The position numbers and the translations under genes were made by a program. Below are positions 5,621 to 49,066 of a stretch of DNA of 59,870 bases, piece by piece. The stretch comes from Lachnospiraceae bacterium (GTDB lineage Bacteria > Bacillota > Clostridia > Lachnospirales > Lachnospiraceae), in the NCBI GenBank assembly GCA_021770245.1, contig JAETRI010000016.1:1-59870 (forward strand), written 5' to 3'. The notes under the pieces were generated by a model that did no database searches, was not told the DNA's origin, and worked only from the letters and a program-made list of their open reading frames with translations. Position 1 is the stretch's first letter; each line of letters begins with the position of its first letter.

Positions 5621-5660
5621 GGCTCCCATCTGCGCGCTTTAGCGCGCGTATAAATTCAGA
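5621..5660 (-). promoter_or_regulatory. Leader cassette: hairpin plus AGATGGGAGC ribosome binding site
   Basis: On the minus strand CTGAATTTATA is followed by GCGCGC-TAAA-GCGCGC and then AGATGGGAGCC, seven bases before the lipoprotein ATG. It is one of at least nine similar leaders in this window. Confidence 0.6.
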
Positions 5661-5816: not shown

Positions 5817-5866
5817 GTTCCCGGACGTCAAGGAACAGGGAAGGATCCTGCCGGAAGCACAGCGTT
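5817..5866 (+). repeat. Partial copy of dispersed module A
   Basis: The run from TTCCCGGACG through CAGGGAAGGATCCTGCCGG to AAGC matches the modules at 20311-20412 and 36870-37147. It sits directly against the recO stop codon, so recO transcripts run into it. Confidence 0.5.
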
Positions 5867-9018: not shown

Positions 9019-9058
9019 CGCTCCCATCTGCGCGCCCGCGCGCACATATAAATCAGTG
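9019..9058 (-). promoter_or_regulatory. Leader cassette before the DUF4349 gene
   Basis: Minus-strand CTGATTTATATG is followed by GCGCGC-GG-GCGCGC and AGATGGGAGC, six bases before the ATG at 9015. It has the same layout as the cassette at 5621-5660. Confidence 0.6.
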
Positions 9059-12133: not shown

Positions 12134-12186
12134 TCTTTTGCGCAAATTATAAACAGGAAGTTTTGCAGCGGCCAGACAATGCGGCC

Positions 12187-12275
12187 AGACAAACGCATGA
12201 ATGGGCCTGCGGCTCTGCGCCGCAGGCCAGGCAGGGGTGGCGCAGAGCCGCAGGCCCATTCATGCGTTTGTCCTG
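12187..12275. repeat. Palindromic element B, copy 1
   Basis: Arms running from GACAAACGCATGAATGGGCC through TGCGGC match their reverse complement for about 35 bp around a short GC-rich centre. The outer 15 bp recur at 13242, 20421 and 26742 while the interiors differ. There is no U tract, so an intrinsic terminator is not obvious. Confidence 0.85.
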
Positions 12276-12318
12276 TTGCGGCGGCAGGGCCATTCCGACG
12301 TTTTCCTTCATAACAAAA

Positions 12319-12421
12319 AAGGAGCTGCCGCAAAACTCAGATAAGGGACAAGATATGGACGTTCCTATTCGTTCATACACGCCATATCTTGTATCGGATC
12401 CTTGTTCTGCGGCAGCTCCTT
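12319..12421 (-). terminator. Long rod-like terminator of bioY
   Basis: Outer arms AAGGAGCTGCCGCA and TGCGGCAGCTCCTT, with an inner ACAAGATATGG/CCATATCTTGT pair, span 103 bases. On the minus strand the stem runs into CCTTTTTTGTT. It begins 13 bases after the bioY stop. The length is similar to the structure after glyS. Confidence 0.7.
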
Positions 12422-12434
12422 CATTGCCATCGCT

Positions 12435-13001
12435 TTAAATTTTCCGGGCTTCCTTCTTCGCGGCCGGCGCTTCCAAAAAAGCGGCCCGGTACAGCTGTTT
12501 TCTTACCTGAAGCCCCAGCACATAGGCCAACGCTACGGAACAGATATCTTTGATCAGATAAGGAAGGGATACCATCCACGCGCTTTCCCCCAATCCCATA
12601 CCGGTGAGAACGGAAAACTGTACCGTTCCGAGGAAATGGCAGATGGCCAGGCCCAGCAGGCCGGGCAGGCATCCTGCCGCTTTCCGCGTCATGGATGAAC
12701 CGATCCCGCAGAGCAGGGCCAGGAACAAAAAGCCCCATATAAATCCTCCTGTTTTTCCTGCAATGACGCCCAGGCCGCCTTTAAATCCGGCAAATACAGG
12801 CACTCCCACGGTTCCCAGCAGGATATAGATAAAGGTCGCCATGGTTCCCAGTTTCCTTCCCAATACCACTCCGGTAAGGGCTACCGCAAAGGTCTGAAGG
12901 GTAACCGGGACGCCGGAGGGAAGGGGAAACGAAATCTGCGCCAGAACGGCGATTACGGCGGCAAACATTCCGATAACAATCGTTTTCTTCGTAGAGTTCA
13001 T
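12435..13001 (-). CDS. bioY: Biotin ECF transporter substrate-binding subunit BioY
   Basis: An integral membrane S component that binds biotin and works with an ECF energy-coupling module encoded elsewhere. The 188-residue product has six hydrophobic segments, the early GVPVTLQTFAVALTG signature, and the FKGGLGVIAGKTGGFIWGF motif typical of BioY. The C-terminus ends in a short basic tail. The start at 13001 has AAAGGA upstream; the 8-codon extension is not needed. No EcfA/T or biotin synthesis genes are adjacent, so it is probably a stand-alone importer gene. Promoter and operator upstream indicate repression by a BirA-type regulator when biotin is plentiful. Confidence 0.94.
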   Translation of the reverse strand: MNSTKKTIVIGMFAAVIAVLAQISFPLPSGVPVTLQTFAVALTGVVLGRKLGTMATFIYILLGTVGVPVFAGFKGGLGVIAGKTGGFIWGFLFLALLCGIGSSMTRKAAGCLPGLLGLAICHFLGTVQFSVLTGMGLGESAWMVSLPYLIKDICSVALAYVLGLQVRKQLYRAAFLEAPAAKKEARKI

Positions 13002-13011
13002 TGTAATAATC

Positions 13012-13110
13012 CTTTCATGCCGCATCCTCTGCGGCAGCGCGATGTGGAATCGCGAATGCGGTTTCTTATCTGTGACTCAATTTGGGCTGTCTGCAGGCAA
13101 AGCCACATAC
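13012..13110. repeat. Diverged single copy of the triple-hairpin unit upstream of bioY
   Basis: CATGCCGCATCCTCTGCGGC, a following GCGATG...AATCGC stretch and TTTCTTATCTGTGA resemble the units at 21823-22226. It forms part of the bioY leader. Confidence 0.4.
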
Positions 13111-13141
13111 AGGTCAGGGAGTTTTTTCCTGTGACGGTATC

Positions 13142-13170
13142 AGAATAACATAGGGAGGATTTATTGTCAA
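13142..13170 (-). promoter_or_regulatory. Sigma-A promoter for bioY
   Basis: TTGACA (13165-13170), a 17-bp spacer and TATTCT (13142-13147) on the minus strand. The leader to the bioY ATG is about 135 bases and contains a hairpin. Confidence 0.85.
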
Positions 13171-13193
13171 CCGTTTTATTTTATTGGTTTACA
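13165..13193. promoter_or_regulatory. BirA-type biotin operator
   Basis: TGTCAAC - 15 bases - GTTTACA matches the published BirA consensus of TGTnAAC-N14/15-GTTnACA in Firmicutes. One half overlaps the bioY -35 box, so binding would block the promoter. Confidence 0.8.
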
Positions 13194-13241
13194 TTTTAGG
13201 TATAAGAACAAACCGGCACCCGGACGACTCTGCCTGGCTCC

Positions 13242-13308
13242 CAGGACAAGCGCATGAATGGCCCTGGGGTGGCGCAGGGGCCTCAGGGCCATTCATGCGT
13301 TTGTCCTG
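13242..13308. repeat. Palindromic element B, copy 2
   Basis: CAGGACAAGCGCATGAATGG and a CCCTG interior pair with CAGGG and CCATTCATGCGTTTGTCCTG. The ends match copy 1, but the interior differs and remains self-complementary. It lies between the bioY promoter and the hypothetical gene. Confidence 0.85.
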
Positions 13309-13381
13309 CCCGGTTCCAGAAAAAGCCGGCAGGGTCGTCCGGGCGCAACAGACCGCAGAGTCGTTCTTCCCCCGGCGCATC

Positions 13382-13819
13382 TCACACCAGGATCGTTCCC
13401 AGGCCCAGCTTGCTGATCTTCACCTCTTCCACCACAATCGTGTTCATTTTCTGCGCCAGCTCCCGGTTTCCCACCACATCCTCCAGGGCGTACTCCCGGT
13501 TTATGTATCCGGCCTTCTTTCTCCCCTTCCCGGCAGGATACCACACGCTCATCCGAAACCGCGCCTTCATCTTTTTATAGGCTCTGTAGGAAGCGCTGTC
13601 TTTATCCAGATAGAATACATGGTTTTCCGGGGTTGTGTCCTCCGCCACCTCCTTTAGGAAGATGCAAAAGATCACTTCCTTCAGTTTATGGGGCACATCC
13701 TCGTTTTCGATCAGCTCTCCGTAGGTATACCGCGCCCCCAGGTAGATGCTGGACATATCCTGCACAATATATTTAAAATCATTTTCTCCGGAAAGGGGCT
13801 GTGTTTCCTTGTTATCCAC
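13382..13819 (-). CDS. Unrecognised protein translationally coupled to the sigma-like gene
   Basis: A 145-residue soluble protein, mixed charge, with no signal peptide or membrane segment. I do not recognise a family. Stretches such as SIYLGARYTYGELI and GYINREYALEDVVGNRELAQ suggest an alpha/beta fold. The start is taken as GTG at 13819, where the stop of the upstream sigma-like gene overlaps it (GTGGATAA) and GGGAG lies about nine bases upstream. An alternative TTG start at 13849 has no ribosome binding site. The tight overlap suggests the product acts with the sigma-like protein. Confidence 0.7.
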   Translation of the reverse strand: MDNKETQPLSGENDFKYIVQDMSSIYLGARYTYGELIENEDVPHKLKEVIFCIFLKEVAEDTTPENHVFYLDKDSASYRAYKKMKARFRMSVWYPAGKGRKKAGYINREYALEDVVGNRELAQKMNTIVVEEVKISKLGLGTILV

Positions 13820-14564
13820 GTCTGTTCTCTCCCGTATCGATATCCTCAATTGCGTCCCCGGAAAATTTCACCGCCTCCATGATTTCCAGAAGCGTCATCT
13901 CCGCCTCGTCCGCCAGTTCCTGCATGCTCACCTTACGTCCCAGGCTTTCCGCCAGCTCCCGGGCCGCATCGGCCACCCGGTTCACCTTCCGGGCCATCCG
14001 CTCCCCGGCTTCCCTCTCCCGCGCATTCTCGGCGATATGCTTCTCCATGGCTTCCATGATCATGCTGCCCAAAAGCCCCTCGGCCTCTGCCGCATCCTGT
14101 GCCGCCCCCAGCATTTCGGCCCCCATGGCCAATGCCACATTTCCTTCCCCGATCAGATCCTCTAAAAGCGCGCCCTGGCCCGCATACAGCCTGGCCATGT
14201 CCGCCACATGGGGAAGGAAGAGGCGGATCAGGCGTTCCTTTGCCTGCGCGTCCCCTGCCATGGCGGAGAGGATCAATGCCTCCTTTTCTCCTGCCGACAG
14301 CCTTTCCGATGTGCGGATGCTCTCCAGCCAAACGGCCAGGTAACTGCGCTCCTCCTCCGACAGCCAGACATCCGGATCTGCCGGTTCCCCGATCCCGATT
14401 TTCTGCGCCCTCAGATAGTCCAGCACCATCCGCAGCTGCTTTTCATCGAATTCCATATCCGAAAAGGCGTCCCTTACCTGTTCTTCGCCGATCCGGTTTC
14501 CCTGTTTGGCCGCCAGCTTCTTCACTTCCGCCAGTGTAGCTGCAAACCGCTGCTCCTGATCCAT
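13812..14564 (-). CDS. Sigma-70-like protein lacking region 4
   Basis: A 250-residue protein resembling the front of a primary sigma factor. Residues about 25-60 (GEEQVRDAFSDMEFDEKQL) look like region 1.1. DPDVWLSEEERSYLAVWLES resembles region 1.2. AKERLIRLFLPHVADMARLY followed by LLEDLIGEGNVAL matches regions 2.1-2.2. RVADAARELAESLGRKVSMQ matches region 3. The aromatic promoter-melting and -10 recognition positions of 2.3-2.4 are not conserved (MIMEAMEKHIAENA in their place) and region 4 is absent. It may bind RNA polymerase core without recognising promoters, or act as an anti-sigma decoy; this is inference. The start at 14564 follows GGGAG and a perfect GCCGCATGCGGC hairpin. Confidence 0.75.
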   Translation of the reverse strand: MDQEQRFAATLAEVKKLAAKQGNRIGEEQVRDAFSDMEFDEKQLRMVLDYLRAQKIGIGEPADPDVWLSEEERSYLAVWLESIRTSERLSAGEKEALILSAMAGDAQAKERLIRLFLPHVADMARLYAGQGALLEDLIGEGNVALAMGAEMLGAAQDAAEAEGLLGSMIMEAMEKHIAENAREREAGERMARKVNRVADAARELAESLGRKVSMQELADEAEMTLLEIMEAVKFSGDAIEDIDTGENRRG

Positions 14565-14755
14565 CACTTCTCCCATTCTGCCGCCGCATGCGGCCGTCAG
14601 TCATGCCACGGGTTCAAAGTTTCCGTTTTCTCTCCCGTCTGTCCATTTTAGTGCGCACTCCAATCAAACAGATTGAAACTTTCAATGATCAGTCTTTCTC
14701 CTGTCTGCCCGCTTGAATGGGCACTTGAACCGGGCATAGAAAACTTGCCGCTCCC

Positions 14756-15628
14756 TCACTGCTTTATTTCATAGGGTGCCTTCACATGGGCATGGGTATA
14801 CAGGTGGTGCTGACAGTATTCGTAATTTCCGTAACATTTGGAACAGAACCGGAATTCCAGCGACGGGTCATCCTCCTCGGTCCTGCCGCAGATGGCGCAT
14901 TTATGCTTGGTCACACCCTGCGGGGTACGCACTTGTTTTCGGAAGTCATGACGACGCTTTACCTGTCTGGGCGACATATGGATGTGGTTTCTGCTGGTTA
15001 AGAAGAACACCACAAAATTAAGCAGAGAGGAACCGATGACGAACCAGGTCACCATTCCGCCCGAGATACACTCATATACCAGCATCACCCCGTAGATGAT
15101 GCCCAGCCACTTCACCTTCACGGGAATAATGAACATCAGAAGCACCTGCATCTCCGGGAAGGTAGCCGCATAAGCCAAAAAGATGGACATATTGATATAG
15201 TAGGTGGAAAACATGCCGAAATCGTAAACCGTTTCCGTTCCCAGTCTGACCGCCTCCGGAGAGCCCAGCAGGCAGTAGACGAAAAGCAGGATGCTCCCCA
15301 GTATGGTGAACAGCATTCCCAAAAAAAGATACAGATTATACCGGTATGTCCCCCAGATCCGCTCCAGCTGGGTGCCGATGGAATAATAGAACATCAGCAT
15401 GATCAGGGTAAAAAACAGATTGGAGCTAGGCGGCGGGATCAAAATCCAGGACACCAGCCTCCAGACCTGGCCGTGGAAAAATATCTGAAAGGGATCCAGT
15501 GTGAGATACCCCAGGAACGCCGGATAGATCAGCGTGATCAGATATCCCGCCGCATAACACGCGATCAGATACATGGAAATATTCCGAATCGCATACTTCC
15601 CGAATTTCTTTTCAAATTTGCTTCCCAT
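14756..15628 (-). CDS. Rhomboid-like membrane protein with C-terminal zinc ribbon
   Basis: A 290-residue protein with six predicted membrane helices (about residues 15-205). The HGQVWRLVSWILIPP and YYSIGTQLERIWG segments resemble the rhomboid/derlin fold. The GxSG catalytic serine and partner histidine of rhomboid proteases are not seen, so it is probably a pseudoprotease. The cytosolic C-terminus has CAICG and CSKCYGNYEYC pairs forming a likely zinc ribbon, then a His-rich HHLYTHAH tail. The start at 15628 has GGGG six bases upstream. A sigma-A promoter lies at 15806-15834. The 190-base gap to the sigma-like gene shows hairpins but no promoter, so the three minus-strand genes here may be cotranscribed. 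Confidence 0.75.
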   Translation of the reverse strand: MGSKFEKKFGKYAIRNISMYLIACYAAGYLITLIYPAFLGYLTLDPFQIFFHGQVWRLVSWILIPPPSSNLFFTLIMLMFYYSIGTQLERIWGTYRYNLYLFLGMLFTILGSILLFVYCLLGSPEAVRLGTETVYDFGMFSTYYINMSIFLAYAATFPEMQVLLMFIIPVKVKWLGIIYGVMLVYECISGGMVTWFVIGSSLLNFVVFFLTSRNHIHMSPRQVKRRHDFRKQVRTPQGVTKHKCAICGRTEEDDPSLEFRFCSKCYGNYEYCQHHLYTHAHVKAPYEIKQ

Positions 15629-15644
15629 AATAATCCCCATTCCG

Positions 15645-15775
15645 GAGCGTTTACGCGACGGGCTAATCTGCCATCAAAGCTATCTGCGACGCTCCGGCGC
15701 AAATAACCAGGCGAATCCGGTTCGCCTGTGAAACAATAAGCCGTCGGGCTTATTGTTCATTCTAATCCTCCATGC
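15645..15775. repeat. Single triple-hairpin unit in the leader of the rhomboid-like gene
   Basis: Three hairpins follow one another: CCGGAGCGT/ACGCTCCGG, CAGGCGAA/TTCGCCTG, and AACAATAAGCC/GGGCTTATTGTT, ending in CTAATCCTCCATGCCGC. The third hairpin and the end match the tandem units at 21823-22226. The remainder of the 15629-15988 gap holds two divergent promoters. Confidence 0.65.
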
Positions 15776-15805
15776 CGCCTCCGATCGATCCGAAACGGCA
15801 TCCTT

Positions 15806-15834
15806 ATTCTATCATTCCATACAAAAAAAGGCAA
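15806..15834 (-). promoter_or_regulatory. Sigma-A promoter for the rhomboid-like gene
   Basis: TTGCCT (15829-15834), 17 bp, TAGAAT (15806-15811) with an extended TGA on the minus strand. Confidence 0.75.
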
Positions 15835-15908
15835 TGAAGCAGCCGGATAAATTCATAAAACTTATAAAAAGTTTAGAATTTCACATTCTTTTTTAACAGG
15901 TTCTTTAG

Positions 15909-15937
15909 TTGCTTTTAGAGAAGTGCTGTCGTATAAT
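15909..15937 (+). promoter_or_regulatory. Sigma-A promoter for the dehydratase activase gene
   Basis: TTGCTT (15909-15914), 17 bp, TATAAT (15932-15937), about 50 bases before the ATG. Confidence 0.8.
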
Positions 15938-15988
15938 GTAACAGTTGATCGAAGGACATATAAATAAGAAGAAAGGAAAAATTTACAT

Positions 15989-18900
15989 ATGAACAATATC
16001 AAGTCTCCTCTCTATGGCCTGGGAATCGATATCGGTTCCACCACGGTAAAGATCGCCATTCTGGACGAGGGGCATCAAATCCTTTTTTCCGATTATAGAA
16101 GGCACTATGCCAACATACAGGAAACCCTGGCCGGGCTCCTTTCCGATGCCGGGAAGGAACTGGGGAACCTGACTCTGCATCCCATGATCACCGGTTCCGG
16201 AGGTCTGACTCTGGCCAATCATCTGGAAATCCCCTTCATCCAGGAAGTAATTGCGGTATCCTCTTCCCTGCAGGAGCTGGCCCCGCAGACCGACGTGGCC
16301 ATTGAGCTGGGCGGCGAGGATGCGAAAATCATCTATTTTGAAAACGGGAATATCGAACAGCGTATGAACGGTATCTGTGCCGGAGGGACGGGATCCTTCA
16401 TCGATCAGATGGCCTCCCTTCTCCAGACCGATGCCGCAGGGCTGAACGAATACGCCAAGGACTATCAGTCCCTTTACACCATTGCCGCCCGATGCGGTGT
16501 CTTTGCCAAAACCGATATCCAGCCCCTGATTAACGAAGGGGCGACGAAGGAAGATCTGGCGGCTTCCATTTTTCAGGCCGTGGTGAATCAGACCATCAGC
16601 GGCCTGGCCTGCGGGAAACCCATCCGGGGCCATGTGGCCTTTCTGGGCGGCCCGCTCCACTTCCTCTCCGAGTTGAAGGCTGCTTTTATTCGTACCCTGA
16701 AACTGGATCAGGAGCATACCGTCGAAACAAAACACTCCCATCTCTTCGCAGCATTCGGCTCCGCTTTAAACTGCCGGGAGGATGTGGCCTTTTCCATAGA
16801 CGACCTGCTGCACCGGCTCTCCGGCGGTATCCGCATGGAATTTGAAGTGGCCCGCATGGAGCCCCTCTTTTCCTCCGAAGAGGAGTATGAGGAGTTCCGT
16901 TCCCGCCACGAGAGCCACTGCGTCCGGACTTTCCCCCTGGAGGACTACGCGGGGAACTGCTACCTGGGCATCGACGCGGGCAGTACCACCACCAAGGTGG
17001 CCCTGGTCGGGGAGGACGGCTCCCTGCTCTATTCCTTTTACAGCAACAACAACGGAAGTCCCCTGAAAACCGCCATCGGCGCCGTCCAGGAGATCTATTC
17101 CCTGCTGCCCCGGGGCGTGAAAATCGTCCGTTCCTGTTCCACCGGCTATGGAGAAGCCTTGATGAAGGCCGCTTTCCTGCTGGACGACGGCGAGGTGGAA
17201 ACCGTGGCCCATTACCACGCCGCGGCCTTTTTTGATCCCGAGGTGGACTGCATCCTGGATATCGGCGGCCAGGACATGAAATGTATAAAAATCAAAAACG
17301 GCACCGTGGACAGTGTGCTGCTCAACGAGGCCTGTTCCTCCGGCTGCGGCTCTTTCATCGAAACCTTCGCCAGATCGTTGAATTACAGCGTGCAGGATTT
17401 CGCCCGGGCCGCCCTTTTCGCGGCCCATCCCATCGACCTGGGCACCAGATGTACCGTATTCATGAATTCCAAGGTAAAGCAGGCCCAGAAGGAGGGGGCC
17501 GATGTGGCGGATATTTCCGCCGGGCTGGCCTATTCCGTCATCAAAAACGCCCTGTTCAAGGTGATCAAGGTATCCGACGCCTCCGAGCTGGGCAGACAGA
17601 TCGTGGTACAGGGCGGTACCTTCTATAACGACGCGGTACTGCGCAGCTTCGAGATGATTGCAGGCTGCCAGGCCATCCGCCCCGACATCGCCGGTATCAT
17701 GGGAGCTTTCGGCGCTGCCCTGATCGCCCGGGAGAACTACACCGCCGGCTACCGGACTTCCATGCTTTCCATCGACCAGATCAATGCCCTGGAATTCGAG
17801 ACCAGCATGGCGAAATGCAAGGGCTGCACCAATCACTGCCGGCTTACCATCAACCGTTTTTCCGGCGGCAGACAGTATATTTCCGGAAACCGCTGCGAAC
17901 GGGGCCTGGGAAAACCGAAGAACCCCAGCCAGGTGCCCAACCTGTTTGAATATAAGCTGAAACGGCTTTTTTCCTATGAACCCCTTTCCGCCGACCGGGC
18001 AAAGCGGGGCCGCGTGGGCATTCCCCGGGTGCTGAACATGTATGAAAACTATCCCTTCTGGTTCACCTTTTTTACAGAACTCGGTTACCAGGTGGTTCTT
18101 TCTCCCGTTTCCACCCATAATATCTACGAACTGGGAATCGAGTCCATCCCCAGCGAATCGGAATGCTATCCCGCCAAGCTGGCCCACGGGCATGTGGCCT
18201 GGCTGATCCGGCAGGGTGTGGATTTCATCTTCTATCCCGCCCTTTTTTATGAAAGGAACGAGACGGAGGGAGCCGGCAACCACTATAACTGCCCCATCGT
18301 CACCTCCTATTCCGAGAACATTAAAAATAACGTGGAAGAGATCGGGCGGGGCGAGGCCATTCTGCGCAATCCCTTCCTGGCATTCACCAGCCTGGAGACG
18401 GCCTCGGACGCCCTGGTAGGGGAATTCTCCGAGCTTCCCGCCCAGGAGGTACGAAAAGCGGCCGCCCGGGGCTGGGAGGAGATGGCCGCATCCCGGGAGG
18501 ATATCAAGAAAAAGGGGGAGGAGGTACTCGCCTGGATGGAGGAAAACGACCGTCAGGGCATTGTTCTGGCCGGCAGACCCTACCATCTGGACCCGGAAAT
18601 CAACCACGGCATCCCCGAACTGATCACCTCCTATGGGCTGGCCGTACTCACCGAGGACTCCGTTTCCCACCTGGGCTGCCCGGAACGCCCTCTCCTGGTC
18701 TCCGACCAGTGGATGTACCATTCCCGGCTGTACGCGGCGGCCTCCTTCCTTCGCACCCGGGACGACCTGAACCTGATCCAGCTCAATTCCTTCGGCTGCG
18801 GCCTGGACGCCGTGACCACGGATCAGGTGAACGATATCCTCTCCGGTTCCGGCAAGATCTATACCTGCCTAAAAATCGACGAGGTGAACAACCTGGGCGC

Positions 18901-20236
18901 GGCCAGGATCCGGATCCGCTCCCTCCTGTCCGCCATCCGGGAAAAGGAAAAGAAAAAGGAAAAACGCAAGGTACATTCCACCGCAGTGAAAAAAGTGGCT
19001 TTTACGGAGGAAATGCGTAAGGAATATACCATCCTCTGCCCGCAGATGTCCCCTATCCACTTCGATCTGCTCGAAGCCGCCTTTAACGCCTGCGGCTACC
19101 ATGTGGAGGTTCTGCCCAACGACAACCGGCACGCCGTAGACATGGGATTGAAATACGTGAACAATGACGCCTGCTATCCCTCCCTGCTGGTGGTGGGGCA
19201 GATCATGGACGCCCTGCTTTCCGGCAGATACGACGTAAACCGGGTTGCGGTCATCATGTCCCAGACCGGAGGCGGATGCCGCGCCACCAACTACATGGGA
19301 TTCATACGGCGCGCCCTGGCCAAGGCGGGCATGGAACAGGTACCCGTTATCTCCGTCAATATGTCCGGACTGGAGAGCAACCCGGGCTTTCATCTGAGTC
19401 CCAATCTCCTGCTCCGGGCGGTTTACGGCGCCATATTCGGAGACATTTTCATGCGCTGTGTCTACCGGATGCGCCCCTACGAACGTACTCCCGGCAGCGT
19501 TAACGCATGCCACCGCAAATGGGCCGAGAAATGCAAAACCTTCCTGGCTTCCAAACATCCGGGCATTCATACCTTCTTCCGGATGTGCCGGGATATCATA
19601 GAAGAATTCGACGCTGTCCCCATCACCGACGAAGCGAAGCCCCGCGTGGGCATTGTGGGAGAAATCCTAGTGAAATTCGCCCCTGCCGCCAACAACCATC
19701 TGGTGGAACTTCTGGAAGCGGAAGGCGCGGAGGCGGTGGTGCCCGACCTGCTGGACTTCATGTTCTACTGCTTCTATAACCAGATTTATAAGGCACAACA
19801 CCTGGGCACCAGCAAAAAGACGGCCCGTTTCGCAAAACTGGGCATCACCGGAATGGAATGGATGCGTTCCGCCGCCGCAAAGGCCTTTGAACGCTCCGTC
19901 CACTTCCATCCTCCGGCCAGGATCAGGGATATCGCTTCCTATGCCTCCCCAATCGTTTCCATCGGAAATCAGACCGGGGAGGGATGGTTCCTCACCGGGG
20001 AAATGGTGGAACTGATCAAGTCCGGCACCAGCAACATCGTCTGCACCCAGCCCTTCGGCTGCCTGCCTAACCATGTGGTGGGCAAGGGAGTCATCAAGGA
20101 GCTGCGCAGACGCTATCCCGGCGCCAACGTGGTGGCCATCGACTACGATCCCGGGGCCAGCGAAGTGAACCAGCTCAACCGGATTAAACTCATGCTCTCT
20201 ACGGCTCAGAAAAACCTGAAGAAGGGGAACGCATAG
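15989..20236 (+). CDS. Fused acyl-CoA dehydratase activase / dehydratase-related protein
   Basis: A 1415-residue cytosolic protein. Two BadF/HgdC-type ASKHA ATPase domains lie in tandem: residues about 8-265 ([33 protein letters not shown]) and 320-590 ([30 protein letters not shown]). Each keeps the two Cys positions that hold the bridging [4Fe-4S] cluster in HgdC. A four-Cys segment CKGCTNHC...C near residue 610 begins the DUF2229-type region, and the C-terminal 400 residues resemble HgdB-like dehydratase subunits. Family members use ATP to inject an electron into 2-hydroxyacyl-CoA dehydratases. In this stand-alone fused form the substrate is unknown. AAGGA lies 11 bases before the start. 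Confidence 0.88.
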
Positions 20237-20310
20237 AAGGAGGGCGCAGACGGATACCAGGAGCACAGGAATCAGGAAATCCGACGCCTTCCTTGCGCCA
20301 AATGCAAGGA

Positions 20311-20412
20311 CGGTCCCGCAGGCTCCCGGACGCTGGGCTGCACAGGGAAGGATCCGGCCGGAAGCCATCTGCCGCTTTGGTGCTGCTTCTTAAGCCGATG
20401 GGAGCGGCTTCC
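20311..20412 (+). repeat. Dispersed module A, copy 1
   Basis: Runs from CCCGCAGGCTCCCGGACGC through CAGGGAAGGATCC to AAGCCGATGGGAGCGGCTTC, roughly 85-90% identical by eye to the left arm at 36870-36981. It is followed 8 bases later by palindrome B copy 3. Together these fill most of the 20237-20600 gap. Confidence 0.8.
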
Positions 20413-20420
20413 TCCTTTCC

Positions 20421-20503
20421 GACAGGACAAACGCATGAAGGGCCCTGCCTTGCAGCACGTGGTGGCGCAGGGGCCGCAGGGCCCTTCATGCGTTTGTCCT
20501 GTC
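20421..20503. repeat. Palindromic element B, copy 3
   Basis: GACAGGACAAACGCATGAAG with a GGCCCTGC interior pairs perfectly with the right arm ending at 20503, around a GC-rich centre. It lies 17 bases before the -35 of the VanW-family gene. Confidence 0.85.
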
Positions 20504-20519
20504 TTTCCGAAAAATAGGA

Positions 20520-20548
20520 TTGGAAAATCGATGTGGATATGCTATGCT
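20520..20548 (+). promoter_or_regulatory. Sigma-A promoter for the VanW-family gene
   Basis: TTGGAA (20520-20525), 17 bp, TATGCT (20543-20548), about 53 bases before the ATG. Confidence 0.7.
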
Positions 20549-20600
20549 AGGGTGGTATGATTCCCGCATCCGCAGGAAGAAAGGAAGGTATGATTTTGAT

Positions 20601-21764
20601 ATGAAGAGATTACATAAGAGACTTCTCGTACTCTGCCTCTTCGTGATCCTCGGATTGTGTCCGCTGCAGGCGGACGCCGCCGAAAGGATCCCGGCAGGAG
20701 GAATTACCACCCTCGCAGGGGACAGCCGTTATATCGACGCAGGCTGGTTTTCGCAGCCCCTCATTTTCACGTTCAACGGACAGACCTGGGCCATGGGGCT
20801 GGATGCCATCAGGGATTATCCCGTTTTCCTCTCCGAAAACGGAGGCATCCGGCAATGTACGCTGGGCGACGCCGCCGCTTTTACGGATTTCATCAATGCG
20901 GTGAACGGCCAGCTCAAGGCGCAGACCTTTGACGGAGAAGCTTCCCTGTTCGACACGGGTACCGGCAGCTATGTCCGCAGTTTTGGGAAAGCCTATTACC
21001 AGCTGTCGGCCAATGTGACGGTGTGGGTGATCAATACCGTACAGCAGCAGCTGGCCGCCGGAACTCCGCAGCCCCTGGTACTCGACTTAACGGAGGAATA
21101 TTTAACCTGTGTAGTGGAAAACGGCAAGTTAAGCTGCAGCCCGGATTTTGTACTTGCCTCCAGCTACAGCACCAGCTTCTCCGGAAGCTCCTCTAACCGG
21201 ATCACCAACATTCAGGTGGCCGCCGGTCATCTGAACAATATGGTGATCATGCCGGGACAGGAAGTTTCCATCAGCGAGGCCATCCGTCCCCGTACGGCCG
21301 CTAACGGATATAAGCCCGCCGGCACCTATGTAAACGGACGGACCGTCCAGTCCACGGGCGGCGGTATCTGTCAGGTATCCTCCACCGTCTACGTAGCCGT
21401 CAAAAACGCAGGGCTGCAGATCCTGGAACGCCATCCCCACAGTATGCCCGTACATTATCTTCCCCTTGGCATGGATGCCGCCATCACGGCCGGCTCCAAA
21501 GATATGAGATTTAAAAATAACTATTCCGCTCCCGTCATTCTTCAGGCCTATACCAAGGGAAACCAGCTGATTATCAACTGCCTGGTTTGGGAACAGGACC
21601 TGGGCGGCCGGAGCTATAAGCTCTGGTCAAAGGAAACCGGAAGCCTTTCCGCCAAAACCTATTTCACCACCTATCAGGACGGGCAGGAGGTGAGCACGGA
21701 TTTCATCGGCACATCCCGATACTCCGCCCCCAAACCGCAGAACTCCGGTGCGGAGGATGAATAA
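20601..21764 (+). CDS. VanW-family secreted protein
   Basis: A 387-residue protein with a basic N-terminus and a hydrophobic signal segment (LLVLCLFVILGLCPLQADA), so exported. The C-terminal half is a typical VanW domain: NRITNIQVAAGHLNNMVIMP, the GTYVNGRTVQSTGGGICQVS core and HPHSMPVHYLPLGMDAAIT. VanW is named from vancomycin-resistance clusters, but its biochemical role is unknown and no van genes are nearby, so resistance should not be inferred. The N-terminal half resembles the PG-binding-like region that often precedes VanW. The start at 20601 was chosen because the in-frame start at 20520 is inside the promoter. GGAAGG lies 12 bases upstream, a rather long spacing. Confidence 0.85.
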   Translation: MKRLHKRLLVLCLFVILGLCPLQADAAERIPAGGITTLAGDSRYIDAGWFSQPLIFTFNGQTWAMGLDAIRDYPVFLSENGGIRQCTLGDAAAFTDFINAVNGQLKAQTFDGEASLFDTGTGSYVRSFGKAYYQLSANVTVWVINTVQQQLAAGTPQPLVLDLTEEYLTCVVENGKLSCSPDFVLASSYSTSFSGSSSNRITNIQVAAGHLNNMVIMPGQEVSISEAIRPRTAANGYKPAGTYVNGRTVQSTGGGICQVSSTVYVAVKNAGLQILERHPHSMPVHYLPLGMDAAITAGSKDMRFKNNYSAPVILQAYTKGNQLIINCLVWEQDLGGRSYKLWSKETGSLSAKTYFTTYQDGQEVSTDFIGTSRYSAPKPQNSGAEDE

Positions 21765-21780
21765 ACCCTTTCATGAATGC

Positions 21781-21801
21781 AGGCAGGCCGGCGGCCTGCC
21801 T
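21781..21801 (+). terminator. Hairpin after the VanW-family gene
   Basis: AGGCAGGCCG and CGGCCTGCCT form a perfect 10-bp stem, 16 bases after the stop, followed by only a weak U-rich stretch. Confidence 0.55.
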
Positions 21802-21822
21802 GTTATGATATTGCAGTCTTTT

Positions 21823-22226
21823 CATGCCGTCCTGGGCGGCCACGCGATGAGAAATTGCGCATGCGATTTCTCATCTGCGATCCCATTTGAGCCGCCTGCG
21901 GCACAAATGGCGGTTGAAAAATAAGCCATCGGGCTTATTTTTCAACCTATTCCTCCATGCCGCGTCCTGGGCGGCCACGCGATGAGAAATTGCGCATGCG
22001 ATTTCTCATCTGCGATTTCATTTGAGCCGCCTGCGGCGCAAATGGCGGTTGAAAAATAAGCCATCGGGCTTATTTTTCAACCTATTCCTCCATGCCGCGT
22101 CCTGGGCGGCCACGCGATGAGAAATCGCGCATGCGATTTCTCATCTGCGATCCCATTTGGGCCGCCTGCGGCGCAAATGGCGGTTGAAAAATAAGCCATC
22201 GGGCTTATTTTTCAACCTATTCCTCC
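21823..22226. repeat. Three tandem 133-135-bp triple-hairpin units
   Basis: Units start at 21823, 21956 and 22091 and are nearly identical; the first lacks two bases. Each contains a GCGATGAGAAAT/ATTTCTCATCTGCG hairpin, a CATTTGAGCC/GCACAAATG hairpin and TTGAAAAATAAGCC/GGGCTTATTTTTCAA, then CCTATTCCTCC. The last unit runs into the final codons of the MATE gene. They occupy the 21765-22216 gap between convergent genes. Diverged single copies lie upstream of bioY, the rhomboid-like gene and, weakly, era. Confidence 0.9.
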
Positions 22227-23617
22227 AACGCCTTCTTTTTCCAGGCTCCCTTCCTATAGAAAAACCAGGTGATCAAGGCGCCCAGCACCCAAGATGCGAG
22301 GAGGGAAATAAAGATACATTCACTTCTGCCGTTAGGCAGCTGAGGGGATCTGGTCATCCAGGCAATCCCGTAGGCCAGCGGCACGCGGATCAACACTGTG
22401 GTGATCAGGGAAATCCACATAGGGGTCATGGTATCCCCCGCGCCTCTCATCACGCCCGACAGGCACTGGGTCACTGCCATGGCTATGTATCCCACCGCTA
22501 AAATACGCATCATCCGCATACTCAGATCCACGAGAGCGCTTGTCTCCGTGAAAATCTGCATCAGATATTTGCCAAAAATCAGGATCAACGCGGTGATTGC
22601 CGCGGAAATGGCCACCGAAATCAGCGTTCCTTCCTTCGCGCCCTGCTCCACCCTGTCGTACTTCCTGGCTCCCACATTCTGCCCCGCATAGGTGGTCATT
22701 GCCGTCCCGAAGGAAAAATTCGGCATCATGGCAAAACCGTCCACACGCATGATAATCACGTTGGCGGCAATGAACATTTCCCCGAAACTGTTCGTCAAAG
22801 ACTGGACAATGATCATGGCCATGGAAAAAATCGCCTGCGTGATACCGGAAGGAAGGCCCAGGCGGATCATATCAGCCGTATGCTTTCTCTTCGGCTTCAG
22901 ATAAGAAAACTTCAGATCGAAAATATCCCCCATCCGGGCCAGCTTCAAAACACACAACACCGAAGAAACCGCCTGGGCGATGGCCGTTGCCAGGGCTACT
23001 CCCGCAACGCCCATCTGGAACACCGCCACAAACAGAAGGTCCAGAATGATATTGAGCACCGTGGCCACCAGCAGATATAAAAGGGCGGATACGGAATCAC
23101 CCAGCCCGCGCAGAATACCGCTCAAAATATTGTAGTACGCCATACCCGCAATCCCCAAAAAGAGGATCATCAGATAGGAGGAACACCAATCCATGATACT
23201 GTCCGGCGTGTTCAGAAGATGGAGCAGCGGCCGGATCACAAAAGGCGCCAGGACCATAATGATGACCGAGGAAATGGCAGTTAAAGTAATGCTGCAGCCG
23301 ATGGAAAAGGACAGCTCTTCTCTCTGCTTTGCTCCGAAATATTGGGAAACCATGATGCTGGCCCCGACAGAGATACCCACAAACAGCACCAGCAGAAGGT
23401 TCAGTATGGGCCCCGCGCTGCCTACAGCCGCCAGCGCATTGTCTCCCACATATCTTCCCACCACAATGCTGTCAACCGTATTGTATAACTGCTGTGCGAT
23501 ATTGCCGATCAACATGGGGATCGCAAACGCTATGATTTTTTTCCCCGGCGACCCTTCCGTCATATCAGTGGGCGCGAATAAGGCTGCCAGGCTGAAAGCC
23601 TTCTTTTGTTTTTCCAT
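22217..23617 (-). CDS. MATE-family efflux transporter
   Basis: A 466-residue inner-membrane antiporter of the multidrug and toxic compound extrusion family, with about twelve membrane helices in two similar halves. Visible family features are the N-terminal KKIIAFAIPMLIGNIAQQLY, NTVDSIVVGRYVGDNALAAV and, in the second half, the repeated MRVDGFAMMPNFSFGTAMTT and AGDTMTPMW segments. The substrate cannot be read from sequence. The start at 23617 has GGGGG five bases upstream and its own consensus promoter. The last codons overlap the end of the third tandem repeat. The gene is single, convergent with the VanW-family gene. Confidence 0.93.
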   Translation of the reverse strand: MEKQKKAFSLAALFAPTDMTEGSPGKKIIAFAIPMLIGNIAQQLYNTVDSIVVGRYVGDNALAAVGSAGPILNLLLVLFVGISVGASIMVSQYFGAKQREELSFSIGCSITLTAISSVIIMVLAPFVIRPLLHLLNTPDSIMDWCSSYLMILFLGIAGMAYYNILSGILRGLGDSVSALLYLLVATVLNIILDLLFVAVFQMGVAGVALATAIAQAVSSVLCVLKLARMGDIFDLKFSYLKPKRKHTADMIRLGLPSGITQAIFSMAMIIVQSLTNSFGEMFIAANVIIMRVDGFAMMPNFSFGTAMTTYAGQNVGARKYDRVEQGAKEGTLISVAISAAITALILIFGKYLMQIFTETSALVDLSMRMMRILAVGYIAMAVTQCLSGVMRGAGDTMTPMWISLITTVLIRVPLAYGIAWMTRSPQLPNGRSECIFISLLASWVLGALITWFFYRKGAWKKKALEE

Positions 23618-23655
23618 AAAATCCCCCTTACTGTTTTTTTCGGACGTTCATTTCT

Positions 23656-23684
23656 ATTATAATGGGCTTTTTTTTATGTTGCAA
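23656..23684 (-). promoter_or_regulatory. Sigma-A promoter for the MATE gene
   Basis: TTGCAA (23679-23684), 17 bp, TATAAT (23656-23661) on the minus strand. Confidence 0.8.
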
Positions 23685-23739
23685 TCGAATATAAAATTAT
23701 TTCTATATTTTTAATAAATTGGAACTAACAGTTCATCCG

Positions 23740-23862
23740 CATTCGCAGGGCCGTTCATGCGTTTGTCGTGGGAACGGCGGCTTTAAAAGCATCCCAAAAG
23801 GGCAGAGGGCTTCCGACAGGATCCTTCGCCCCAGCGCCCTGGAACCTGTGAGGCGGCTTAAC
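23740..23862. repeat. Half of element B joined to an inverted module A
   Basis: CAGGGCCGTTCATGCGTTTG (right arm of B) is followed by a degenerate reverse-orientation module A containing GGCTTCCGACAGGATCCTTC. This is the same association as at 20311-20503 but reversed. The 23618-24058 gap otherwise holds the MATE promoter and the ackA terminator. Confidence 0.6.
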
Positions 23863-23905
23863 TGTTACGATTGGAAGAACCGGTGCATATCCCGATCCCT
23901 CGTAT

Positions 23906-23953
23906 GAAAAGGGGCCCGACATCGGTCAAACCGCTATCGGACTCCCCTCTTTC
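23906..23953 (-). terminator. Terminator downstream of ackA
   Basis: On the minus strand GAGGGGAGTCCGA pairs with TCGGGCCCCTTTT around a GGTTTGACC loop region. An earlier hairpin (GCCCTGC/GCAGGGC) lies close to the stop near 24030-24050. Confidence 0.6.
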
Positions 23954-24058
23954 AAGCCGTGTGATTCCTTTTTCCCGCAGTGCTGCCGTAGCTCCGTCAG
24001 CCCCATTGGAGATAAAATCCGCTCCGCCCTGCAGCTACGCCGCAGGGCGTCCATGGCT

Positions 24059-25264
24059 TCACTCCCCTTTTTGCACGATTGCATAGGTTTCCCTGGCAAT
24101 CGCCAGCTCTTCGTTGGTGGGAATTACAAGGGCTTTTGCCCCCTCTCCCTGTTTGGAAATCACGATTTCCTGTCCTCTAACGTGATTGGCGCCATCATCC
24201 AGGACGATCCCCAGCCAGGCCAGGCTGGAACAGATCATACTGCGCACAAGAGGGCTGTTCTCTCCCACGCCCGCGGTAAAGCAGACGGCATCCACGCCGC
24301 CCATCTGTGCCGCGTAGGCTCCGATATATTTCAAAACTCTGTGGCAGAAGGCCTTGAGGGTACGGACTGCCGCTTCTTCCCCTTTCCCGTAAGCCTCTTC
24401 CAGATCGCGGAAATCGGAGGAAAAGCCGTCGGAAAGCCCGTATACGCCGGACTCCCTGTTGAGAATGTCCATGATCTCGTCCACCCCTTTTCCCTCTTTA
24501 TGGGCAATAAACTCCATGACGGCAGGGTCGATATCGCCGCTTCTGGTCCCCATCACCAGCCCTTCCAGCGGGGTTAAGCCCATGGAGGTATCCACGCATT
24601 TTCCGTACTTTACGGCGGATACGGACGCACCGTTCCCAAGATGGCACACGATAAGCTTCAGTTCCTCTATCGGACGGCCCAGCAGGGCTGCGGCTCTTCC
24701 CGATACATAGGCATGACTGGTTCCGTGGAAACCGTATCTTCTGATTTTATAGTCCCTGTAGTAATGATAGGGGATGCCGTAGAGATAGGCTTCCTCCGGC
24801 ATGGTCTGGTGGAAAGCCGTATCGAACACGCCCACCATGGGAACGCCGGGCATCAGCGCTTCGCAGGCTTCGATTCCGATCAGGTTGGCCGGATTATGCA
24901 GCGGAGCGAGTTCACAACATTCCCGGATCGCCCGCTTCACTTCCTCCGTAATCAGGGTGGAACCGGCAAAATGTTCTCCTCCGTGTACAATGCGGTGCCC
25001 CACCGCATCGATACCGGACAGACTGTCTATCACCCCGGTCTCCGGGTCGGTTAAGGCCTCCAAAACGAGCCGGATAGCCTCCCTGTGGTCTCCCATCTCC
25101 TTTTCCGTAATTTTCTTTTCTCCCGATGCGCTCGTATAGACCATGCGGCCTCCCGGAATGGCTATCCGCTCGCACAGGCCTTTTGCAATCAGTTTTTCGC
25201 TTTCCGCATCGATCAGCTGAAATTTCAGGGAAGAACTCCCGCAGTTAATCACTAAAACGTTCAT
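24059..25264 (-). CDS. ackA: Acetate kinase
   Basis: Transfers phosphate from acetyl phosphate to ADP, giving acetate and ATP, the last step of the fermentative acetate pathway. The 401-residue length is normal. Visible family signatures are the N-terminal VINCGSSSLKFQLI, VGHRIVHGGEHF and YGFHGTSHAYVSGRAA, with the adenosine-binding FTAGVGENSP near the C-terminus. The start at 25264 has GGGGG seven bases upstream. It follows pta by 170 bases with a terminator-like hairpin between them, so some transcripts probably stop after pta. Confidence 0.97.
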   Translation of the reverse strand: MNVLVINCGSSSLKFQLIDAESEKLIAKGLCERIAIPGGRMVYTSASGEKKITEKEMGDHREAIRLVLEALTDPETGVIDSLSGIDAVGHRIVHGGEHFAGSTLITEEVKRAIRECCELAPLHNPANLIGIEACEALMPGVPMVGVFDTAFHQTMPEEAYLYGIPYHYYRDYKIRRYGFHGTSHAYVSGRAAALLGRPIEELKLIVCHLGNGASVSAVKYGKCVDTSMGLTPLEGLVMGTRSGDIDPAVMEFIAHKEGKGVDEIMDILNRESGVYGLSDGFSSDFRDLEEAYGKGEEAAVRTLKAFCHRVLKYIGAYAAQMGGVDAVCFTAGVGENSPLVRSMICSSLAWLGIVLDDGANHVRGQEIVISKQGEGAKALVIPTNEELAIARETYAIVQKGE

Positions 25265-25298
25265 AACAATACCCCCTTCTATTCCTCTTATAAAAACG

Positions 25299-25328
25299 CC
25301 GGACAGATCCGTTTCGATCCGTCCGGCA
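25299..25328 (-). terminator. Hairpin between pta and ackA
   Basis: GCCGGACGGATC pairs with GATCTGTCCGGC and is followed by GTTTTTAT on the minus strand. It may reduce ackA expression relative to pta; no separate ackA promoter was found. Confidence 0.7.
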
Positions 25329-25434
25329 TGTCTTCTCTTACAAACCGCGCTGCGGCCTTCCGGTACACAGACCTAAACGGCTCCCTAACGGTGAAGCCTC
25401 CCTGCACCAGAACATCTCCGGATTATCTGCCCTC

Positions 25435-26436
25435 TCAAGCCAGCTGTGCCTGCACTGCCGTAAGGGCCACCACACCCACAATGTCTTCCCAGGAACAGCC
25501 TCTGGACAGGTCGTTCACCGGCTTGGCAATTCCCTGAAGCATAGGGCCGTAAGCCTCCGCCTTTCCGAGACGCTGTACCAGCTTGTAGCCTATGTTTCCC
25601 GCATCCAGATTGGGGAAAATCAACACGTTTGCCTTGCCGGCCACTTCGCTGCCCGGCGCTTTGGATTTTGCGATCTTGGGAACCAGGGCGGCATCCGTCT
25701 GCAGCTCGCCGTCCAGCGTCAGATGCGGGTATTCCTCATGGGCGATCTCCACCGCCCGCACCACCTTGTCCACCAGCGGATGGCTGGCGCTTCCCTTGGA
25801 GGAATGGGAGAGCATGGCGATCAGGGGCTTGGCATCCACCAGCTGTTTAAAGCTCTTGGCGCTGCTGTCCGCGATGGCCGCCAGCTCCTCCGCCGTGGGA
25901 TCCTGGTTCAGCCCGCAGTCGGCAAACAGGAAGGTCCCGTTTTCCCCATACTGGCAGTCCGGAACATCCAGGATGAAAAATGCGGATACCAGCTTCACGC
26001 CGGGCGCCGTGCGCAGAATCTGCAGGGAAGGCCTGAGCACATCCGCCGTGGCATGACATGCTCCCGCTACCATCCCGTCCGCATCATTGGCCTTGACCAT
26101 GAGTACACCGAAAGTTAAATAGTCGTTGAGCAGCTTTTCCCGCGCATCTTCTATCGTCATACCCTTCGCTTTTCTCAGTTCATATAATAGCTGGGCATAC
26201 TCCTCGAATTTCTCCGTCCTGGTGGGGTCGATCACCTTTACTCCCGTCAAATCGACTTCCAGCCAGCCGGCACCGTCCATAATCTTCTCTTCATTGCCCA
26301 CCATGATGATATTGGCGAGATCTTCTTCGATCACATGGGAAGCCGCGATCAGCGTCCTTTTGTCCGTAGTCTCGGGCAGAACGATCGTCTTCTTATCCGC
26401 TCTCGCCTTTTTCTTGATCAGATCAATATAAGACAT
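25435..26436 (-). CDS. pta: Phosphate acetyltransferase
   Basis: Converts acetyl-CoA and phosphate to acetyl phosphate and CoA, supplying AckA. The 333-residue product is the short single-domain form found in Firmicutes. Motifs include [18 protein letters not shown] near the N-terminus, [20 protein letters not shown] in the middle, and [20 protein letters not shown] near the C-terminus. The start at 26436 is preceded by AAAGGAG; the in-frame extension to 26499 has no family similarity. A consensus promoter lies at 26638-26666. It is head-to-head with tmcAL. Confidence 0.97.
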
Positions 26437-26637
26437 ATCCCCGTAACTCCTTTCCGCAACGTCTACTGTTCCCGGATTGCGGTTTCCGCAACGCGGCACT
26501 GTCCGAACCCGGCCGGCGAAACGGAACCTGTATCATCCTGAGGACTTATTTATACCACTGCGTATCGCAGGCGGGGCTTGCGATAACGCTACCAATCGTA
26601 AAGCCGGAAATTTCTTTCCAAACTTACATTCTTATAA

Positions 26638-26666
26638 ATTATACAGAATTCCCGAATGGTATACAA
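26638..26666 (-). promoter_or_regulatory. Sigma-A promoter for pta
   Basis: TTGTAT (26661-26666), 17 bp, TATAAT (26638-26643) on the minus strand. This leaves a leader of about 195 bases before the pta ATG. The 26437-26967 gap also holds palindrome B copy 4 and the tmcAL promoter. Confidence 0.75.
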
Positions 26667-26741
26667 GGTACATTTTTAGGATTTCTTGTACAAATTCATG
26701 CACATTTTTGTTTTCCCGCCCGGCTGTCGGGCTTATTTTCC

Positions 26742-26804
26742 CAGGACAAACGCATGAACGTCCCGGCGGCAGACGGACGCCGGGACGTTCATGCGTTTGT
26801 CCTG
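26742..26804. repeat. Palindromic element B, copy 4
   Basis: CAGGACAAACGCATGAACGT with a CCCGGCG interior pairs perfectly with CGCCGGG and ACGTTCATGCGTTTGTCCTG. It has the same ends as copies 1-3 and a completely different paired interior. It lies between the divergent pta and tmcAL promoters. Confidence 0.88.
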
Positions 26805-36604: not shown

Positions 36605-36643
36605 GCTCCCCTCTGCCCGCCTTAGCGGGCGCTCCAATCAGGG
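36605..36643 (-). promoter_or_regulatory. Leader cassette before nagB
   Basis: Minus-strand CCTGATTGGAG, hairpin GCCCGC-TAAG-GCGGGC, then AGAGGGGAGC six bases before the ATG. A second hairpin plus AAAGGGGAGC lies at 36669-36698 with no start codon after it. Confidence 0.6.
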
Positions 36644-36824: not shown

Positions 36825-36869
36825 CCGTATGGAGCAATCTTTTTCGAGACAAACGAATGAACGGCGTAT

Positions 36870-37147
36870 CGGCTCAGCCACCCCGCAGGCTCCCGGACGC
36901 CGGGGCGCACAGGGAAGGATCCTGCCGGAAGCCATCTGTCCCTTTGGCGCTGCTTCTTAAGCCGATGGGAGCGGCTTCCTTGCGAATGCGGCGTTGTCCG
37001 ACGAACGCAGTGAGGAGTTTAGCCGCATTCGCAAGGTCCGAAGCCGGGAACAGCGGCTTTAGAAGCAGCCCAAAGGGGCAGCGGGCTTCCGGCAGGATCC
37101 TTCCCTGTGCGCCCCGGCGTCCGGGAGCCTGCGGGGTGGCTGAACCG
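36870..37147. repeat. 278-bp palindrome built from two facing copies of module A
   Basis: The left arm from CGGCTCAGCCACCCCGCAGG onwards matches its reverse complement ending near 37147 almost perfectly for 60 bp or more, with further pairing of CCTTGCGAATGCGGC and GCCGCATTCGCAAGG nearer the centre. A fragment of element B (GACAAACGAATGAACGG) lies just to the left at 36848. This fills most of the 36600-37261 gap with the nagB leader. Confidence 0.9.
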
Positions 37148-37210
37148 AACGGCCCTGCGCCCGTATTCTTTCCTAAAAGGAATTCTTTTTCTTCCCGTTC
37201 CCACGAATTA

Positions 37211-38173: not shown

Positions 38174-38193
38174 ATTTAACACAAAATTATACA

Positions 38194-38423
38194 GGAGCGG
38201 TTTAGCGGCCCTCTGCGACCGTGTTCCGCCCCTGCCCGGCCTCGCAGAACATGGTGATCACAGAGGGGACCATCCAAAAACGCCGGCACTTAGCGAGCCC
38301 GTCCTTGGCGAGCTTAGTACCGTTGCGTTTTTGGCTGAGCGAAAGCGGGTCCCCGATGGATCACCATGTTCTGCGAGGCCGGGCGGGGCGGAACACGGCC
38401 GTAGAGGGCCGCTAAACCGTTCC
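38194..38423. repeat. 230-bp palindrome between the SGNH paralogues
   Basis: Arms beginning GGAGCGGTTTAGCGGCCCTC and including CGCAGAACATGGTGATC pair with the right arm for about 65 bp each with few mismatches. The central part has AAAAACGC/GCGTTTTT and a further weak stem. It occupies most of the 38174-38517 gap, 20 bases after the first SGNH stop, and could serve as its terminator. Its sequence is unrelated to elements A and B. Confidence 0.9.
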
Positions 38424-38455
38424 CGATTTTGTCCTGCCGGGAAAGGCTTTCCTTC

Positions 38456-43328: not shown

Positions 43329-43365
43329 TTAACCACCATTCTGCGCCGCTCGTCGAACATGCGGG

Positions 43366-49030: not shown

Positions 49031-49066
49031 TTCATACGTCTATCCATACAGGCATACCGCAGGCGC

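Follow-up and report, generated by a model that had tools for sequence, protein, structure and literature searches.

We found that four near-perfect palindromes in a 59,870-nt stretch of a Lachnospiraceae genome (contig JAETRI010000016.1; this whole stretch is referred to as the window) belong to a dispersed family, here called family B, whose sequences identify its members as miniature inverted-repeat transposable elements (MITEs), that is, non-autonomous elements of an insertion sequence (IS) of the ISAs1 family. The explanation that best joins the observations below, and to which we assign a probability of about two in three, is an ISAs1-moved MITE family with template-switched arms and a core carried as RNA cargo selected for its fold. 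An ISAs1-family transposase would move the elements in trans, and internal deletion of a full-length element would yield the short palindromes. Hairpin template switching during DNA replication would copy changes from one arm of a palindrome onto the other, so that the arms of one copy would drift together and diverge between copies. The core, kept by selection on its own fold, would most likely be a structured RNA cargo of mobile palindromes, carried across the bacterial family inside terminal repeats that vary from genome to genome.

The end CAGGACAAACGCATGAA and its complement are common to the four window palindromes, all of them short MITEs to which no strand is assigned. The first (91 bp, 12185–12275) has arms of unequal length and flanks that match at 4 of 9 positions, with no recognizable target duplication. 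The others are flanked by target duplications: 7/9 for the 67-bp copy at 13242–13308 (CCTGGCTCC / CCCGGTTCC), 8/9 for the 79-bp copy at 20423–20501 (CCTTTCCGA / TCTTTCCGA), and 8/10 for the 63-bp copy at 26742–26804 (locus L166), which belongs to the arm subfamily CGTCCC. A sequence-only reading of the window had already described these palindromes, their sites (within 2 bp of ours) and their shared ends, although the end is a variant in two of the eight arms (CCAGACAAACG, CAGGACAAGCG). Its statement that the inner parts differ completely did not survive the addition of more copies: across the loci that we fetched, the interiors are homologous and can be aligned to a single family arm, TGGCCCTGCGGCCCCTGCGCCACCCCTGCCC..., with divergence from it in each copy. 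The two half copies that it had reported do exist. One (23754–23770, minus strand) is a lone end, CACGACAAACGCATGAA, followed by the inward arm start CGGCCCTGCG; the other (36845–36865, plus strand; end-motif match 36845–36861) is apparently interrupted by a palindromic element at 36869–37148, beyond which GAACGGCCCTGCG resumes. That element belongs to a second palindromic family (arms of 79 nt, 95% complementary), also present at 20315–20413, 23770–23827 and 5835–5858; by eye, it appears inserted into the family-B copy at 36845, and the family-B copy at 20423 adjoins a remnant of the same second family.

Further copies, whose absence the sequence-only reading had said would count against it, are plentiful. 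Allowing up to three mismatches, the 15-mer GGACAAACGCATGAA has 13 matches in the window (shuffled mean 1.73, largest 5). With at most one mismatch it has 237 matches in the 4.28-Mb genome that the window comes from (the source genome, 237 contigs), and the reversed motif has none. Among 12 other genomes of the same genus, G011 holds 29 end-motif sites and each of the other 11 holds three at most. One hundred of the 237 sites in the source genome were placed individually, and the 38 paired copies analyzed below are loci from the end-motif and IS-end searches plus further fetched stretches. Matches to CGACAAACGCATGAA in genome G097 were rejected as MITE ends: in L161, the single locus fetched, they read as a tandem repeat of 15 bp, with arrays of a CGACAAACGCATGAA-like unit (1031–1865) that match the end motif.

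The four palindromes lie between large open reading frames (ORFs) and are overlapped only by small mechanical ORFs, so the description of the copies as intergenic stands. Being palindromic, intergenic and repeated, they could be taken for repetitive extragenic palindromic (REP) elements or intrinsic terminators, a view that we find hardly credible. No T-run was found 3' of any of the four, in keeping with the earlier remark that the lack of U tracts sets them apart from ordinary terminators, and the terminator pattern of a GC-rich hairpin followed by a T-run was therefore rejected. REP elements associated with REP-associated tyrosine transposases (RAYT) are described, in the available text of PMC3733652, as palindromes of 20–40 bp with a GTAG or CGTC tag at one end. 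Family B shares with REP elements and bacterial interspersed mosaic elements (BIMEs) the character of dispersed extragenic palindromes, but differs from them in ends, length and target duplications. Its ends read CAGGACAAACG on both sides and most paired copies exceed 40 bp, on which grounds the RAYT-associated class was rejected; moreover, copies with a conserved core reach about 245 bp, and 9–10 bp target duplications and IS ends are present.

An intact ISAs1 transposase is encoded in the source genome on contig C6. The 369-aa protein matches the ISAs1 family model NCBIfam NF033564 (328.9 bits against a cut-off of 70, E = 2.9e-98) and carries the Pfam domains PF13808 (DDE_Tnp_1_assoc) and PF01609 (DDE_Tnp_1). 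Its element opens with CAGGACAAACGCATGAATGAATAA, and the right end reads TTCATGCGTT, truncated by 7 bp where the contig stops. When named genomes were scanned with this transposase, 35 loci were returned, mostly from Lachnospiraceae. Both ends lie within two mismatches of the motif in 10 of the 22 related IS loci examined, typically as CACGACAAACGCATGAA, and at least three more (L045, L048, L052) have lost their left end to a contig boundary. Target duplications of 9–10 bp were seen by eye at three of the IS loci (L037, L046, L049). Among the 38 paired copies of family B, 19 have target duplications of 9–10 bp at 70% identity or more, nine of them perfect; when left flanks were compared with the right flanks of other copies, 12 of 1406 combinations reached this threshold and none was perfect. 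Terminal repeats, transposase family and target-duplication length all agree with ISAs1-derived MITEs, and it is because of the shared ends, the target duplications and the intact transposase that we assign family B to an ISAs1-family IS. From these sequence features we infer that family B is mobilized in trans by the ISAs1 transposase.

The 12 same-genus genomes yielded no close relative of this transposase. Three had any match at all, each distant: two adjacent pieces with 40–41% identity in G005, a fragment with 38% in G011 and a short match in G002. G011 is syntenic with the DNA of the source genome, at 80–90% identity over much of the compared stretch, and its interval syntenic to the window copy at 20423 has no such MITE end. 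At one homologous site the two genomes carry MITEs of different subfamilies (L106, 349–427, in the source genome; L144, 1460–1517, in G011); this pair was not used as an orthologous insertion because independent insertion at a shared target is conceivable. L077 and L123 are separate insertions within one intergenic region. Locus L151 of G011 aligns to two contigs of the source genome (L028, L082) with a breakpoint near MITE copies, possibly a rearrangement.

Full-length copies of family B are about 240 bp long and consist of a 17-bp end, a variable paired arm of about 50–65 bp, a 106-nt core, the second arm and the second end. This layout comes from long copies of 209–245 bp together with a search with the element of L110, in which 40 of 323 candidates were scored; the long copies are the best matches plus earlier loci. 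A full-length member that the sequence-only reading did not mention lies in the window at about 38186–38436 (plus strand), with variable paired arms, a decayed and inexactly placed left end, and a right end reading ...TTTTGTCCTG. Its conserved structured core (38257–38362, plus strand) scores 131.3 bits with our covariance model R1. Remnants of the block that flanks the core were noted by eye in four short copies (L007, L027, L028, L115), which makes internal deletion the best reading of the short palindromes; in the case of the four window palindromes, derivation from the ~240-bp element is suggested by unequal arms.

A 23-nt stretch of the core is exact at 34 of the 61 sites found with up to three mismatches, and 21 of the 22 three-mismatch sites bear the signature letters of a nested palindromic element (CAATGTGGTCAACTTAAG...). 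Elements with ends CAATGTGGTCAACTTAAG sit at the identical core position in L008, L015, L203, L207 and the second core of L110, and GGCACTTAGCG stands on both sides of the nested element, where readable, in the first four of these loci. Copies with the nested element are omitted from the long-copy alignments A1 and A2; L126, which lacks a right anchor, is in A1 and not in A2, and A2 also omits L209 and L210.

The sequence-only reading had further claimed that each interior, however variable, pairs with its own other arm, and had named a failure of the interiors to covary as counting against the family. The pairing claim was borne out in most copies, and the interiors do covary. At interior positions 18–25 of the copies in the source genome, the observed match between arms was reached in 0 of 20000 permutations. 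In 20 long copies (19 from the source genome and one from G011), 97.7% of arm cells pair, against 85.4% after shuffling; double changes occur in 47 of 86 arm pairs (22.0 shuffled), and 181 cells are doubly changed (40.1 shuffled, at most 31 with slid partners). Within the 19 long copies of the source genome, left and right arms differ at 39 of 972 sites, whereas between these copies the arms differ at 19.6% of positions (32.9% with gaps) and the core at 5.9%. Within-copy mismatch, in 8-bp bins outward from the core, is 0.7, 3.9, 3.9, 3.3, 4.6, 2.6 and 4.6%, and rises to 12.7 and 25.8% in the next bins, in the end region. Since both ends should match at insertion, this gradient suggests that the inner arms stay paired in place.

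How the pairing is kept is informed by a block beside the core. Of 22 copies, 13 are asymmetric for this block (one arm with ACAGAG, one with CATCGG), five have CATCGG twice, three have ACAGAG twice and one is unclassed; the block has been homogenized, in either direction, in eight of the 21 classed copies. Mismatches between the arms of a copy in the source genome comprise 15 G-U, 9 A-C and 13 others (9, 8 and 7 without L192). Because the block was copied in either direction and G-U shows no clear excess over A-C, we favor DNA template switching over stepwise selection as the best explanation of the arm pairing. The alternative would be a functional RNA that spans the entire long hairpin and whose arms covary by selected pairing, with compensation mutation by mutation. 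The excess of doubly changed cells fits such an RNA, the L110 element folds at −224.5 kcal/mol (z = −27.7), and the core is RNA-like in its covarying helices and GNRA-type loop. Compensation in single steps sits poorly, however, with multi-base homogenization in both directions, with the scarcity of one-sided intermediates and with the near balance of G-U and A-C; orientation to neighboring genes is not fixed, and short derivatives and half copies persist. On balance we regard a whole-hairpin RNA as unlikely.

Pairing around the core extends beyond the source genome. The 24 nt on either side of the core pair at 0.767 within a copy (75 hits, 31 genomes). The corresponding values are 0.570 when copies of one genome are paired with each other and 0.463 between genomes, and 58 of the 75 copies exceed the 99th percentile of between-genome pairing.

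We next consider the core itself, for which R1 was built from 23 examples. In a model-free alignment of 31 sequences from 31 genomes, taken from the best-scoring loci, double changes affect 32 of the 35 pairs predicted. The fitted alignment comprises 78 hits; pairing holds in 96.0% of its cells, and doubly changed cells number 668, compared with 181 after shuffling and at most 95 with slid partners. The core thus shows the helix covariation across species that is expected of a structured RNA. By eye, all 31 sequences retain a U-U mismatch, and all except L231, L232, L236 and L243 retain a tandem G-A. The loop of a mini-hairpin could be parsed as G-any-any-A in 70 of 76 copies; since the parse demanded G first and A fourth, the third place alone is a test, and it is a purine in 70 of 70. 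The parsed loops read GAGA (38), GAAA (13), GGGA (9), GGAA (5), GCAA (3) and GCGA (2), and of the six unparsed ones five are GNRA by eye and that of L210 is not. Partial hits on the complementary strand in L208 and L209 (the plus-strand hit) are in the 78-hit alignment and out of the G-U, flank-pairing and loop counts; the flank-pairing count omits one further hit with short flanks. The core loci of alignments A4 and A5 are the best-scoring ones, and A5 omits L226.

Neither the window nor 14 loci of other genomes gave an Rfam 15 match at gathering score, and the L110 element gave one weak match (E = 2.7; 12 bits, where the gathering score is 100). The GNRA-type loop and the non-canonical pairs argue for RNA as the polymer of the core, which is probably a new structured RNA, and selection on its own fold is the favored reason for its conservation. 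The two possibilities raised from the window alone, structural selection or the regeneration of palindromes by copying, may therefore be apportioned: copying is favored for the arms, and selection on structure for the core, which had gone unnoticed. As for the remark that no matching named family was known, ISAs1 is a named family that explains the mobility.

R1 matches (E ≤ 0.001) were found in 149 of 397 sampled genomes of the host family, representing 133 of 334 genera, with the source genome and G011 included; 248 genomes gave no match, and the best E values outside the genus are about 4e-20. Nine candidates were scored per genome, so copy numbers are lower bounds. Around the core, inverted repeats other than the ISAs1 type occur in four of seven distinct G101 loci and four of nine distinct G379 loci (counts in which L221 is merged with L264, and L218 with L244, as the same places). 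Whether the core is an unnamed structured RNA family (a three-way junction with a GNRA mini-hairpin, a tandem G-A and a U-U), carried in these 133 genera as cargo of mobile palindromes with unrelated terminal repeats, its enclosing stem rewritten yet kept paired by template switching, is a proposition that we hold at about even odds.

A core that is itself a separate mobile unit, inserting at the center of pre-existing palindromes whose arms belong to the targets, would explain why a near-invariant core lies within differing arms and terminal repeats. The lower divergence of the core than of the arms between copies fits this idea, as do the ISAs1-type ends here and the other inverted repeats in G101 and G379, and in five copies from G136 the cores are 92.6% identical and the arms 53.5%. 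Against it, the arms of different copies in the source genome are recognizably homologous, those of G101 are 80.8% identical between copies, and the block remnants in the four short copies noted above show loss of the core. We think a separate core unit improbable, to about the same degree as a whole-hairpin RNA.

Neighboring cores are arranged head to head in 13 of 15 pairs, about 48–946 bp apart (L220, L222, L224, L234, L237, L241, L252, L272, L273, L275, L276, L282, L283), an arrangement that may point to a functional or mobile unit made of two hairpins. Five of the 13 pairs come from one genome (G420), and L273, L275, L282 and L283 were fetched for pairs already noticed; without these four the count is 9 of 11, and the P value of 9e-7 overstates the case. 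Relative to neighboring ORFs the core has no fixed orientation: with a crude ORF caller, 30 of 35 hits could be scored, as 10 opposite/opposite, nine same/same, nine same/opposite and two opposite/same. A fixed role as a transcription leader is unsupported by this mixture. Exact-pattern searches did not find the core in phages, plasmids or viral contigs, and R1 found none in the 35 named ISAs1 loci and 10 same-genus loci.

Several observations weigh against our preferred explanation. At positions 18–25 of the 19 copies with a clear duplication, mismatch between arms (10/152) is not clearly lower than mismatch between duplications (15/176), and across the 38 paired copies single-arm changes (33 cells) are as frequent as co-changes (32). 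The case for maintenance in place rests on the long copies because these positions show no clear advantage of the arms. They would also suit ordinary MITE subfamilies, each from a source whose arms matched by chance, with pairing not maintained afterwards: six of the nine copies with perfect duplications, from several subfamilies, are fully matched at positions 18–25, and three have two or three mismatches. Such subfamilies would not account for long copies with decayed ends that keep about 50–60 bp of matched inner arm, and the matched sources would themselves need double changes; we consider this account quite unlikely. Template switching has further difficulties of its own. Arms are badly matched in L126, L192, L209, L210 and, from G011, several short copies; flank pairing does not exceed the control threshold in 17 of the 75 copies; and in G101 the arms beside the core match at 0.687 within a copy and 0.808 between copies. 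If it acted everywhere, template switching would be expected to remove the conserved mismatches in the core as well. The palindromes may, in addition, be misassembled, as the assembly has 237 contigs with many sites near contig ends. Lastly, G-U pairs in the core number 64, against 34 A-C, among 2561 cells, in an alignment that leans towards G-U. This G-U share is small for an RNA, which leaves room for the core as a DNA hairpin.

Family B resembles ISAs1 IS elements and their MITEs in sharing its terminal repeat with an IS of the same genome, in its 9–10 bp target duplication, lack of a transposase and many copies, and in being mainly intergenic. Unlike in ordinary IS-derived MITEs, the inside consists of long paired arms and a structured core and is not a deleted IS. 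No ISAs1-derived MITE of such make-up was found in the literature searched, and ISAs1 is not mentioned in the available text of the review PMC10969869. Reverse-complement copying between the arms of a quasi-palindrome homogenizes the arms and makes multi-base compensatory changes, according to the available text of PMC8794818 and PMC8604942. The homogenized arms and multi-base changes of family B are alike; the cases in those texts are RNA genes or yeast coding DNA, and family B is mobile, with numerous copies in one genome. A catalog from human microbiomes (PMC8040213) lists, in its available text, 3161 candidate structured RNAs, of which 250 are palindromic, 230 of these being predicted terminators; the words "mobile" and "transpos" do not occur in its main text. 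The family-B core may be among these candidates. MITEs and template switching are already known; the literature searched yielded no MITE enclosing a structured core that covaries and is spread across a family of bacteria.

The window holds other repeats. A 135-bp unit is repeated three times in tandem at 21828–22232, with internal palindromes of 36 nt (AATAAGCC...GGCTTATT) and 30 nt (GATGAGAAAT...ATTTCTCATC), and a 123-bp tandem duplication at 43362–43607 is 98% identical. The motif GCTCCCATCTGCGCGC...GCGCGC, whose small stem differs from copy to copy, occurs at 5622–5655, 9020–9053, 36605–36638 and 48998–49031.

Family B offers a natural experiment on the evolution of perfect hairpins: copies are numerous within a genome, their two arms change in concert, and the ends, target duplications and core serve as internal controls. 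The core is a widespread folded element of the host family with no Rfam 15 match, and its copies could act as RNA regulators, mobility signals or selfish cargo.

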